In this document: piece after piece, positions 41,708-61,109 of the stretch
Layout: each line of letters opens with the position of its first letter
Position numbering within the stretch: position 1 is the stretch's first letter
From: a candidate division NC10 bacterium CSP1-5
GTDB taxonomy: Bacteria; Methylomirabilota; Methylomirabilia; Methylomirabilales; CSP1-5
NCBI GenBank assembly: GCA_001443495.1
Contig: LDXR01000003.1
Location: 141,782-205,781, forward strand
Direction: 5' to 3'
DNA length: 64,000 nucleotides
The notes under the pieces: generated by a model
What the model saw: only the letters and a program-made list of their open reading frames with translations
Databases searched by the model: none
Told to the model about the DNA's origin: nothing
Position numbers and translations under genes: made by a program

Positions 41708-42547
41708 CTAACGGGAACAGATTTTGCGGACGAGCCGGTCGAGATCGTCTTCGGAGTAAAACTCCACCTCGATCCGCCCGCGCTGACCGCGCCGAATAAT
41801 CCGGACCTTTGTGGCCAGGGTCCGGCGCAGCTGCTCTTCCGCCTGGGCCAGTCCCGGGCCCTTTCGCCGCAGCGTCCGATCCTGCGCCGCCGCTCCGCTC
41901 TTGAGTCGCTTGACCAACAGCTCCGTCGCCCGCACGGAGAGGCCGCGCCGGATCACCGCCTCTCGTGCTTTGAGTTGAAGATCCCGACCCTCGAGACCGA
42001 GCAGAGCCCGGCCGTGCCCTGCAGACATGGCCCCTTCGATCAGATCCTCTCGAAGCGGGTGGGGAAGTTTGAGCAGGCGGAGCGTATTGGCGATAGAGGC
42101 CCGATCCTTTCCAACCCGTCCGGCCATCTCCTCCTGGGTCAGTCCAAACTCCTCGATCAGGCGGCGGTAGACCTCGGCCTCCTCGACAGGATTCAGATCC
42201 TCCCGCTGGACATTCTCGATCAGGGCCACCTCGAGCGTCTCCGCGTTGGACATCTCCCGCACCACGGCCGGAATCCGCTCGAGGCCCGCGCGCTCCGCCG
42301 CACGAAGTCGGCGCTCTCCCGCCACAAGTTCGTAGCCCCCCAGGATCTGCCGGACTATGACAGGGGAGAGGATCCCCTGGGCGCGGACTGAGGCGGCCAG
42401 CTCGTCCAGTTTTTTATCATCGAAGCGCTTCCTCGGCTGGAAGGGGCTTGGGCGGATCTCTATCAGAGGAATTTCCACGATCCCCGACTCCCCCTTTGCG
42501 AGGGGAATGAGGGCCTCAAGGCCCCGACCGAGCGCCTGCCGTCCCAT
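41708..42547 (-). CDS. parB: Chromosome partition protein ParB (Spo0J)
   Basis: 279 residues. N-terminal CTP-binding ParB/Srx domain (PFQPRKRFDDKKLDELAASV, LVAGERRLRAAERAGL), central helix-turn-helix (LTQEEMAGRVGKDRASIANTLRLL) and C-terminal dimer domain with a basic RRGQRGRIEVEFYS end. Binds parS, loads as a sliding clamp and works with ParA near the origin. GGAGG precedes ATG 42547; it overlaps parA by 32 bases. Confidence 0.97.
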   Translation of the reverse strand: MGRQALGRGLEALIPLAKGESGIVEIPLIEIRPSPFQPRKRFDDKKLDELAASVRAQGILSPVIVRQILGGYELVAGERRLRAAERAGLERIPAVVREMSNAETLEVALIENVQREDLNPVEEAEVYRRLIEEFGLTQEEMAGRVGKDRASIANTLRLLKLPHPLREDLIEGAMSAGHGRALLGLEGRDLQLKAREAVIRRGLSVRATELLVKRLKSGAAAQDRTLRRKGPGLAQAEEQLRRTLATKVRIIRRGQRGRIEVEFYSEDDLDRLVRKICSR

Positions 42548-43298
42548 CGATCACCTCCTTGGCAAGATGTAGGTACGCCTCCGCCCCTGCCGAACGGATA
42601 TCGTATAGGATGATCGGTTTCCCGAAACTCGGTGCCTCACTCAGGCGGGTACTCCGAGGAATCACGGTGTCAAAGACTCGCCCGGAAAAGTTCCGGCGCA
42701 CGTCCTCTACGACCTGGCGGTTGAGGTTCAACCGGCTGTCATACATAGTAAAGACAACCCCCTCGATCTCAAGACCCGGGTTGAACGAGCGTCGAATGAG
42801 GCGCAGTGTGGTCAGGAGATTGGTGAGTCCCTCCAGGGCGTAATATTCGCACTGAATGGGAATGAGGACGGAATGAGCGGCTACAAGTGCGTTTAAAGTT
42901 AAGAGACCCAAAGAAGGGGGACAATCAACAAGAATATAGGCAAAATCACCTGAAATCTCGTCTAGGGCGCTCTTCAGCCTTTGCTCTCGCCCGTCCGCCG
43001 GGACCAGCTCGATCTCTGCACCGAGCAGGGCTACGCTCGAAGGGAGGATGTGGAGTGCGGGGATCGGACCGGGACAGAGCGCCTCAGAGGCTTTGGCCTC
43101 GCCCAGGAGAACCTCATAGATGTAGGGACCAGGCCCCTTCCGGGAGAGGCCGAGCCCGGACGTCGCGTTCCCCTGCGGATCGATGTCCACCAGGAGTGTG
43201 CGTTTGTCAGCCGCGGCGAGACAGGCAGCGAGGTTTATTGCGGTGGTGGTCTTGCCCACCCCTCCCTTCTGGTTGGTGACCGCGATCACCCGCGCCAC
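42516..43298 (-). CDS. parA: Chromosome partition ATPase ParA (Soj)
   Basis: 260 residues, deviant-Walker ATPase: KGGVGKTTTAINLAACLAA at the N-terminus, LLVDIDPQGNATSGLG, and YILVDCPPSLGLLTLNAL. Small chromosomal form without an N-terminal DNA-binding domain. ATP-dependent DNA binding drives segregation of ParB-parS complexes. The GTG/ATG start region lies 170 bases downstream of the parS sites. Confidence 0.97.
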   Translation of the reverse strand: MARVIAVTNQKGGVGKTTTAINLAACLAAADKRTLLVDIDPQGNATSGLGLSRKGPGPYIYEVLLGEAKASEALCPGPIPALHILPSSVALLGAEIELVPADGREQRLKSALDEISGDFAYILVDCPPSLGLLTLNALVAAHSVLIPIQCEYYALEGLTNLLTTLRLIRRSFNPGLEIEGVVFTMYDSRLNLNRQVVEDVRRNFSGRVFDTVIPRSTRLSEAPSFGKPIILYDIRSAGAEAYLHLAKEVIDGTAGARSGP

Positions 43299-43465: not shown

Positions 43466-43481
43466 TGTTTCACGTGACACG
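43466..43481. promoter_or_regulatory. Degenerate parS-like site
   Basis: TGTTTCACGTGACACG matches parS at 13-14 of 16 positions and lies 21 bases from the perfect copy, partly outside rsmG. Confidence 0.55.
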
Positions 43482-44159
43482 CTCCGGGCGAGCCTCGACC
43501 CCTGTTTCACGTGGAACAGTGCCGGCCCTGACAATGATAATGATGTCCCGGTCCGAACTCAGGTGGAGGACCCGCTCAATCTTGATGTCGGGGCGCCGAA
43601 TGGTCTCGGCCTCCCTCAGCCATCTCAGCCCTACGGGCAGGACGAGACGCCCCTCCCTGTTCATAAACGGTGTGCAGAGAGCGACGGTCTCTGGGAGCCT
43701 CGTCACCGCCCTTGCGGTGACGAGATCGTAGGCCTCCCGGTGCGCCGGATCACGATGCAGAGACTCCGCCCTCGCCTGCAGGACTGAAATCCCGCGCAAC
43801 TGGAGGAGGCGACAGACCTGTCTCAAGAAGGAGACCTTCTTTCTCATCGCCTCAACAAGGGTGACCGCGAGATCTGGGGCGGCAATCTTGAGGGGAATGC
43901 CGGGGAGACCTGCGCCGGTGCCGACGTCAATCAGCCGCAGGTTAGGCTTGACCTCAAACGCCTTGAGGAGGGTCAAAGATTCCAGGATCCCATGCCGAAC
44001 CACCGCCTCGTCGGTCCGGAACCCAACCAGGTTCGCCTTTCGATTCCACCGCTTGAGCTCGGTGAGGTACGTGATGAAGTGCTCGATCTGCGCCTCAGTA
44101 AGGGCAAGGCCCAGCTTTGCTCCGCCGCGAGTCAGGAGTTTCTTTATCGCCTCGTCCAT
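43470..44159 (-). CDS. rsmG: 16S rRNA m7G527 methyltransferase RsmG (GidB)
   Basis: 229 residues. Methylates G527 of 16S rRNA with SAM. Motif I LIDVGTGAGLPGIPLKIA, then LVEAMRKKVSFLRQVC and TARAVTRLPETVALC. The C-terminal coding region contains the parS palindrome, translated as TVPRETG. Placed between mnmE and parA as in many bacteria, but mnmG is absent from this run. Confidence 0.95.
   Translation of the reverse strand: MDEAIKKLLTRGGAKLGLALTEAQIEHFITYLTELKRWNRKANLVGFRTDEAVVRHGILESLTLLKAFEVKPNLRLIDVGTGAGLPGIPLKIAAPDLAVTLVEAMRKKVSFLRQVCRLLQLRGISVLQARAESLHRDPAHREAYDLVTARAVTRLPETVALCTPFMNREGRLVLPVGLRWLREAETIRRPDIKIERVLHLSSDRDIIIIVRAGTVPRETGVEARPERVT
43503..43518. promoter_or_regulatory. parS centromere site, consensus palindrome
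   Basis: TGTTTCACGTGGAACA; its reverse complement TGTTCCACGTGAAACA is the Bacillus parS consensus. It lies inside the last codons of rsmG, immediately upstream of parAB. Confidence 0.95.
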
Positions 44160-47913: not shown

Positions 47914-48051
47914 CTACGTCACCGCCAGCCGCTTTCTCCCCTTGGCCCGCCGCCGGGCCAAGACTCGCTGGCCCCCCGCGCTCCTCATCCGCCGGCGAAA
48001 TCCGTGGGTGCGCTTTCGCTTAATGCGACTGGGCTGATAGGTGCGCTTCAC
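47914..48051 (-). CDS. rpmH: 50S ribosomal protein L34
   Basis: 45 residues beginning [20 protein letters not shown] and ending KGRKRLAVT, an unambiguous L34. GTG start with GAGAGGG eight bases upstream. First gene of the leftward operon and the left boundary of the probable origin. Confidence 0.97.
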
Positions 48052-48095
48052 TCCTCACGCCCTCTCCGAGTAACGTCACTCCGCCGAAGCGTTTC

Positions 48096-48124
48096 ATCGT
48101 AGTCCTCTGCGATTCACTTGTCAA
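48096..48124 (-). promoter_or_regulatory. rpmH operon promoter
   Basis: Minus strand TTGACA (48119-48124), 17-base spacer, TACGAT (48096-48101). Start near 48089, leader about 38 bases. Confidence 0.75.
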
Positions 48125-48162
48125 TTTCAATCCACGCAGGCCCGGTAGAGGGCAAAAAGTAG

Positions 48163-48191
48163 TTGTAATTGTGGGGCCGGCATGCTATAAA
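48163..48191 (+). promoter_or_regulatory. Rightward promoter at the start of the empty dnaA slot
   Basis: TTGTAA (48163-48168), 17-base spacer, TATAAA (48186-48191). Start near 48198, about 560 bases before dnaN, with no gene in between. Confidence 0.5.
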
Positions 48192-48701
48192 AACCGTGCC
48201 AAGTTCTACCCCGGGCTTCTACCAGAAAACCCGGAGTCTGGCGGTGTATCCGTTCCTGAGATAGACCATAACTATTTGAATCAAAAGGATGTTACGGGTT
48301 TTCCACACATGTGGACAATCTTGTGAGTAACTCAAAGCCTTGTCCTAAGAGCTCTGGGGGGGCGTCGAGAGAATAAACGCGCGCCTGCTGCGGCTTGGCC
48401 CGTGTGGAAACGAATCAGGCCAGAGGTGGAGCGGCTTCAGGAGGTGTTGCCCTCGTGAAGCGAGGAAGGTCGGGCGCCCGCCGCGGAGAGTGGATAAGTC
48501 AGGGAATACGAATGGAAAAGGTGTGGGGAGGTGGGGAGAGGAGAGGAGCTCGACATGTTTTCCCGTCTAATCCCCATAGTATTCCATCCTCTGTCCCAAG
48601 GTAGATCCATTTACTCTCGGTGCTTTCCGCATTTCCACAGGCCCTCCTATCTCCTACGACTTAAGATATTATCTCTATAGGTCATAGAGAGGTCACTCTT
48701 G

Positions 48702-48707
48702 TATAAT
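48702..48707 (+). promoter_or_regulatory. Perfect -10 box upstream of dnaN
   Basis: TATAAT 50 bases before the dnaN ATG, in the A+T-rich stretch. No convincing -35 hexamer at 16-18 bases. Confidence 0.4.
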
Positions 48708-48756
48708 ACGTAAGGGACCTATGAACTCATAATGGAGTGGAATAGGGAGGAAGGTG

Positions 48757-49860
48757 ATGCGTGCCCAAGTAGGTCGGAATGCATTCCTGAGCACCTTGGC
48801 GCAGGTCCAGGGCGTTATCGAGGCAAAGAGAACTCTTCCAGTCCTCTCCCATCTCCTTCTCGAGGGAAAAGGAAACACCATTAGCCTCTCAGGCACCGAC
48901 CTCGACGTTAGTATTCAGACCTCCCTTGAGGGTGAGGTCATGCACGATGGCGCTGTCGCGGTCTCGGGAAAAAAACTGTACGAGATCGTGCGCGAGCTGC
49001 CTGATGCCCCAATCGACCTTCGGTGGGAAGAGGGAAAAAATGTAGAGATCGTCTGCGCGAAATCGACCTTCCGTCTGAAAGGGATCGGACCAGAAGACTT
49101 CCCCGCCCTTCCCAAGGTCCCTGAAGGGGTCGGGATCACTATCACCCCCGAGACGCTTCGAACGATGATCCCAAAGACCCTCATTGCTGTCTCCACGGAT
49201 CAGACGCGACCGACCCTGACGGGAGCTTTTTTGCAGGTGACAGAAGCGGATCTCTGTATGGTGGCTACAGACGGTCATCGCCTCTCACTCGTCAAGGCCC
49301 CTATTGAAAAGGGAAAGAAGGAACGGAGCCTCGAGGCCATCATCCCACGGAAGGCCCTGTCAGAGCTCGGGAAGATGCTCAAGGAGGAGACGGGGGATGT
49401 TCGACTGGTTCCCTTGGACCATCAGCTTGCCTTCCTCCTGAGCCACAGCCGCTTGATCACTCGGCTGATTGAAGGACAGTTCCCCAACTACCAGCAGGTC
49501 CTCCCGTCTCCGAGCGGCCCGAAAGCAGTGCTCCGCCGGGACGATCTCCTCGGCGCTCTTCGCCGCACCTCGACGATTGCGGGGGATCGGGCGACGCCAA
49601 CCGTTCTCGAGTTGAAGGCGGGGCGCCTCATGATCTCCTGTACGAATATCGATCTCGGCGAGGCGAAGGAGGAGCTTTCTATGGAGTATCGAGGGGCGGA
49701 GACCACCGTCGGGTTCAACGCCAGGTACCTCCTGGACTTCTTGGGTGTGGTGGAGGAGTCGGAGGTCTCGATGCACGTCCAGGATCCGTTGTCCCCCGCC
49801 CTGTTCGAACCACACAAAGGGGAGGGCTTCAGCTGCGTCATTATGCCCATGCGGATATGA
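48757..49860 (+). CDS. dnaN: DNA polymerase III beta sliding clamp
   Basis: 367 residues, three repeated clamp domains. Marks: RTLPVLSHLLLEGKGNTISL, VATDGHRLSLVKAPIEKG, and the C-terminal IMPMRI (equivalent of the MPMR/L end). ATG 48757 has GGAGG six bases upstream; a GTG one codon earlier is too close. Followed by a strong terminator, so it is not co-transcribed with gyrB from its own promoter without read-through. recF, usually next, is absent. Confidence 0.98.
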   Translation: MRAQVGRNAFLSTLAQVQGVIEAKRTLPVLSHLLLEGKGNTISLSGTDLDVSIQTSLEGEVMHDGAVAVSGKKLYEIVRELPDAPIDLRWEEGKNVEIVCAKSTFRLKGIGPEDFPALPKVPEGVGITITPETLRTMIPKTLIAVSTDQTRPTLTGAFLQVTEADLCMVATDGHRLSLVKAPIEKGKKERSLEAIIPRKALSELGKMLKEETGDVRLVPLDHQLAFLLSHSRLITRLIEGQFPNYQQVLPSPSGPKAVLRRDDLLGALRRTSTIAGDRATPTVLELKAGRLMISCTNIDLGEAKEELSMEYRGAETTVGFNARYLLDFLGVVEESEVSMHVQDPLSPALFEPHKGEGFSCVIMPMRI

Positions 49861-60830: not shown

Positions 60831-61109
60831 CCTTGGCCGTGCTAGATGGGGAGCTAGCGGTGCCCTGAACCCGCAATCCGCTATAGCGGGATTGAACTCC
60901 TGCCCGAGGTCCTGGATCTCCGGGTGATCTGCCCGGGGTTGGGGCGTCGAGGGTCGGGTCCTGCGCAAGGGGGATCCGTGAACCCCGTCAGGTCCGGAAG
61001 GAAGCAGCGGTAAGCGGTCTGCCTCCTGTGCCGCGGGGGCGCCCGGCCGGAGCCTTCGGTCCTGGGTAAGTGCCGGCGGTTGGGATCGACGGCAGGTGCA
61101 CGGCCAAGG
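60831..61109 (+). ncRNA. ffs: Signal recognition particle RNA, bacterial large type
   Basis: About 279 bases. Ends pair as CCTTGGCCGTGC (60831-60842) with GCACGGCCAAGG (61098-61109). The Alu-domain start GGTGCCCTGAACCCGCAATC and the universal helix-8 core GTCAGGTCCGGAAGGAAGCA are both clear. This is the long, Bacillus-like form with an Alu domain, not 4.5S RNA. It precedes dnaX as in Bacillus (scr-dnaX). Confidence 0.95.

Follow-up and report, generated by a model that had tools for sequence, protein, structure and literature searches.

The 702-bp non-coding region between rpmH and dnaN of the candidate division NC10 bacterium CSP1-5 is in all likelihood the chromosomal replication origin (oriC), which would have stayed at its ancestral locus while dnaA moved away intact. 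The genome does have an intact dnaA, located on a different contig. The first-pass annotation had offered two alternatives for this region, that dnaA had moved and oriC stayed or that initiation does not use a standard DnaA. The former is supported by the remote dnaA, by a skew switch within the region and by an origin element shared with relatives that have dnaA in place. The latter finds no support, as the remote gene is intact and encodes all the DnaA domains. What happened was very probably a rearrangement in the course of evolution, with replication still started in a known way. The same annotation had proposed a genome-wide search for DnaA, a cumulative GC-skew analysis and a comparison of the region in relatives, and the results of all three are given below.

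Results

The sequence analyzed (the window, 64,000 nt) is part of contig C3, 227,086 bp in length, from a 2.77-Mb, 40-contig genome that is 99.7% complete. The nearest named relatives of the host are Candidatus Methylomirabilota (NC10) MAGs. The slot lacking dnaA (48052-48753, no strand assigned) lies between the divergent genes rpmH (47917-48051, minus strand, start at 48051) and dnaN (48754-49860, plus strand, three beta-clamp domains). The start of dnaN is GTG at 48754, alternatively at 48757. The longest ORF wholly within the slot encodes 69 amino acids, the remaining ORFs are short or antisense, and an Rfam search of the slot for a hidden RNA gave no match. The gap described earlier as non-coding contains no credible gene, and the gene order and the divergent switch of orientation at the slot are both as had been described. 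The A+T-rich stretch that had been pointed out is present but weak, with at most 68% A+T, whether in 40 bp or over 40-50 bp, in the host genome. The most A+T-rich stretch between the dnaN-side box and dnaN, a possible unwinding element, is located at 48661-48700 (plus strand, 68% A+T in 50 bp). Outside the window, the first 25 kb of contig C3 (1-25000) have about 50% G+C vs 63% in the remainder and may be an island or a misassembly. On the far side of dnaN, a large bacterial SRP RNA (RF01854, 200 bits) was found at 60837-61103 (plus strand) near tRNA-Ser genes, four of which lie at 56.4-60.8 kb of the window.

The proposed genome-wide search, run with Pfam domains, found a single genuine dnaA, located on contig C20 (13500-14861, minus strand). 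It encodes a full-length protein of 453 amino acid residues with all three domains of a standard DnaA (DnaA_N, E 1e-15; AAA+, 1.4e-70; DnaA_C, 1.2e-28). Because this gene is intact and belongs to the same genome, the empty slot indicates relocation and not DnaA-free initiation. The C20 protein is 97% identical to DnaA of another species of the genus, and the neighboring genes match. A Bac_DnaA match on contig C39 was rejected as a second dnaA; it encodes an IstB-like helper of transposition and lies next to an IS21-type transposase.

Contig C3 has both its cumulative GC-skew minimum and its best change point at 189,924, that is position 48143 of the window, inside the slot (log-likelihood gain 64.6). 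A strand-composition switch of the kind found at an oriC is thus present at the slot. When plus-strand and minus-strand genes were taken separately, third-position skew shifted in the same direction across the slot in both classes, and the switch is therefore more than an effect of gene orientation. A sign flip at the slot was also found in six relatives from four families (f1, f2, f3 and f6). Within about 10 kb of dnaA a flip was seen in 0 of 6 genomes of these families, and the profile of contig C20 showed no switch at dnaA. In the f6 genomes G024 and G025 a second cumulative-skew minimum lies 10-25 kb from dnaA (near 24.7 kb in G024, near 269.8 kb on contig C8 in G025) and is as deep as or slightly deeper than the minimum at dnaN. 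The cumulative skew of G024 has an additional dip near 2.38 Mb, and its terminus-side switch (1.15-1.19 Mb) lies across the chromosome from the dnaN slot. Rearrangement could explain the untidy skew of these two genomes beyond the dnaN slot.

The slot contains three sites with at most one mismatch from TTATCCACA, where about 0.1 is expected; the whole 227-kb contig has 33. The DnaA-box-like sites noticed earlier are therefore real and enriched, and they form a cluster of the oriC type around a conserved element. Box 1 of this element (48299-48307, plus strand, TTTTCCACA) is head-to-head with box 2 (48310-48318, minus strand, TTGTCCACA), and box 3 (48322-48330, minus strand, TTACTCACA) carries the oriC-type tail TGTGnGTAA. 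The resulting 32-bp triple-DnaA-box element (48299-48330, plus strand), with its boxes oriented plus, minus, minus, is an exact match to a phylum-wide pattern and appears to be the half of the ancestral origin on the rpmH side (oriC1-like). The pattern matched once in the window and in 0 of 100 shuffles. A further DnaA-box-like site (48489-48497, minus strand, TTATCCACT) lacks conservation among the other species of its genus.

The triple-box element lies about 250 bp from rpmH both in slots where dnaA is missing and in the sister families, where it occupies the spacer between rpmH and dnaA. All matches at 0-2 mismatches in the 1.96 Mb searched were located at the slot or rpmH-dnaA spacer or upstream of dnaA. 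Those upstream of dnaA precede the relocated gene in f2, f5 and f6 and dnaA at two loci of the KSB3 outgroup. The tail of the element is TGTGnGTAA in 11/11 slots and 12/12 sisters, and TGTGnATAA in 12/12 relocated dnaA promoters. Strong perfect DnaA boxes occur in the relocated promoters of f2, f5 and f6, while f1 and one f3 genome have, where visible, reduced two-box or weaker versions before dnaA. On the simplest reading, the element in the slot would descend directly from the ancestral one, and a diverged copy would accompany the remote dnaA.

On the dnaN side, alignment placed a ATTTCCACA box followed by a CTA-rich tract at 48631-48660 (plus strand), a putative second origin half that is degenerate DnaA-trio-like (oriC2/BUS-like). 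Most slots, and the dnaA-dnaN spacers of the sisters, have in common a CTA-rich tract preceded by a box or a CCACA core. The basal unwinding system (BUS) consists of a DnaA box and DnaA-trio, and we applied the published rule of a box with at least three DnaA-trios after it, within 16 bp (PMC8287927). A search of the host slot by this strict pattern gave zero qualifying sites; among relatives the pattern was present before dnaN in G007, G010 and G013 and in each of the five f6 genomes looked at. CTA trinucleotides before dnaN are enriched in the sisters (Fisher p 0.002). Their count in the slots was not significant (p 0.2), so the reading of the dnaN-side box and CTA tract as a BUS is only suggestive.

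We surveyed 95 Methylomirabilota genomes for dnaA and dnaN, among them those of the order comprising families f1-f6 (the Methylomirabilis group) and those of its sisters f7, f8 and f10. In 52 of the 53 sister genomes having both genes, dnaA lies directly before dnaN; the exception (G037) has its dnaA and dnaN matches near the ends of different contigs. Among the 28 members of the order with both genes, dnaA adjoins dnaN in none. The distance between the two is about 207 kb in G024, a single-contig genome of 2,752,854 bp from f6, the oxyfera-type family. As for the proposed comparison with relatives, direct inspection of 16 genomes from f1, f2, f3 and f6 showed rpmH and dnaN flanking a slot without dnaA, 462-929 bp in length. 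G010 was rejected as a dnaA-less genome because an 80% identical dnaA fragment lies at a contig end.

All dnaA genes of the order form one clade (SH-aLRT 99), and the groups within it match the families. A single relocation, basal to the order and followed by vertical descent, is sufficient to account for this tree. The neighbors of dnaA agree inside f1 and inside f6 and differ between families, which indicates that dnaA or its surroundings moved again after the relocation. A single conserved new home for dnaA was rejected, as the neighborhoods are not common to different families.

Other dnaA-like genes were encountered in the survey. A second dnaA, separate from dnaN, is present in several f7 genomes (G047:C104, G050:C77, G051:C8, G054:C200, G041:C168 and C198, G066:C267, G068:C164), and those of G047, G050, G051 and G054 form one clade. 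These genes were rejected as the source of the dnaA of the order. Two dnaA genes were also present in 4/4 KSB3-group genomes searched (G095:C13, G096:C32, G101:C128, G102:C51). Many frames of about 320-350 amino acids with a weak match to DnaA domain IV were found in f1 and f2, several per genome (G009, G013, G002, G003 and others). They are possibly mobile-element proteins with a DnaA-like helix-turn-helix.

Among the other genes of the origin region, parA (42516-43298) and parB (41708-42547) are both on the minus strand. Beside them are a parS site with one mismatch (43503-43518, plus strand) and a second with two mismatches (43466-43481), both about 5 kb from the slot. The window has three matches to the parS pattern, a count reached in 0 of 100 shuffles. 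recF, jag and mnmG had been noted as gone from their usual places. mnmG is intact on contig C21. The host genome has no recF above the family cut-off and zero matches to R3H/jag. recF is absent in all f1, f2, f5 and f6 genomes searched, while f3 retains it next to dnaN. The DnaA tree groups f3 with f1, so recF was probably lost more than once.

Discussion

We propose the following history for the slot. The ancestor of Methylomirabilota would have had a bipartite origin, with the triple DnaA-box element between rpmH and dnaA, a box and CTA-rich tract between dnaA and dnaN, and dnaA itself as the spacer. In the founding lineage of the order a copy of dnaA, together with its upstream DnaA boxes, would have settled at another chromosomal site, and the frame in the slot would afterwards have been lost. 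Both origin halves would have been kept and joined into a single uninterrupted origin, roughly 460-930 bp long. The product of the remote dnaA is predicted to bind the triple-box element and, at the dnaN-side box, to open the A+T-rich stretch before dnaN. The copy of the boxes before the remote dnaA probably serves autoregulation.

The remote dnaA might have come from outside the order. A foreign gene, for example from a KSB3-like donor, could have been inserted elsewhere as a replacement and the native dnaA then deleted from the origin. This concerns only the source of the remote dnaA and leaves the slot as oriC, so it is compatible with most of the explanation given above. DnaA of the order is 55% identical to some KSB3 DnaA, slightly more than the 50% to sister DnaA, the free tree joins the order and KSB3 weakly (support 44), and the relocated box element has a tail similar to that in KSB3. 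However, placing the order with the sisters is not rejected (p-AU 0.61) and has a likelihood 3.9 better than that of the unconstrained search, and the promoter element is common to the dnaA of the sisters. The tree by itself does not discriminate between vertical descent and a KSB3-like donor. We regard a foreign source as unlikely, though it is the most credible departure from the history proposed.

The position of the working origin could also be questioned. The old slot might be a relic, the origin having moved with dnaA to a promoter rich in DnaA boxes, or both places might fire. The strong perfect boxes of the relocated promoters in f2, f5 and f6 would fit this, as would the second skew minimum about 10-25 kb from dnaA in two f6 genomes. 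Against it, the skew switch in the slot of the host genome is sharp, neither contig C20 nor any of the six genomes from f1, f2, f3 and f6 switches at or near dnaA, the terminus switch of G024 is opposite the dnaN slot, and the slot elements are conserved across families and not decaying; a relic slot is accordingly improbable. It is only marginally less improbable that f6, including G024, has come to use two initiation sites, at dnaN and near dnaA, or is shifting between them. The duplicated box element would then have diverged into one version for the origin (TGTGnGTAA) and another for the promoter (TGTGnATAA). DnaA-independent initiation occurs in some cyanobacteria and endosymbionts, and a slot without dnaA might suggest the same here. 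The intact dnaA with all domains, which belongs to one clade across the order, the regular skew switch and the conserved DnaA boxes make this very improbable. An artefact of assembly or binning, with dnaA dropped from the slot or the C20 gene a contaminant, could be suspected in a fragmented genome with 2.9% contamination, but 16 genomes have the slot without dnaA, including one assembled as a single contig of 2.75 Mb, and the close counterpart of the C20 gene in another species of the genus has matching neighbors. We give an artefact hardly any credence. That the slot is oriC and that dnaA was the mover is the reading we retain.

Throughout the order, the use of dnaA as an origin marker or as the genome start point misplaces oriC. 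The sequence of G024, for instance, starts at dnaA although the dnaN slot is about 207 kb away. The Methylomirabilis group is known for nitrite-dependent methane oxidation, and our literature search found no paper on the replication origin of Methylomirabilota. The slot offers a natural example of a bipartite origin that would have lost its dnaA spacer and kept both halves, and it bears on why some origins are split around dnaA.

Among known origins, the BUS resembles the dnaN-side half in having a box and then CTA repeats before dnaN, with the strict pattern in the five f6 genomes; the version of the host genome differs in being degenerate. Bipartite oriC1-dnaA-oriC2 origins are found in B. 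subtilis and Epsilonproteobacteria (PMC5043019, PMC4285127). The Methylomirabilota sisters are like them, with boxes on both sides of dnaA and the dnaN-side element before dnaN. In the order, by contrast, the dnaA spacer is gone, so the slot has no two box subregions split by dnaA and the halves form one intergenic region. In E. coli, too, oriC is separate from dnaA (PMC8287927, PMC4285127), but it lies in another gene context, whereas here oriC would be at the ancestral locus and dnaA the mover. The cyanobacterium Synechococcus elongatus has oriC beside dnaN at the skew shift and dnaA encoded separately (PMC7198777). It is like the present case in that dnaA is present and apart from dnaN, with oriC at a skew shift near dnaN. 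Unlike in S. elongatus, the origin here is still flanked by rpmH-rnpA-yidC-mnmE-rsmG-parAB and gyrB-gyrA, the ancestral triple-box element can be traced in the sisters, and there is no sign of DnaA independence. Since an oriC apart from dnaA is known in both E. coli and cyanobacteria, the finding adds a new lineage to a known situation, and it is one in which the history of the event is unusually legible.
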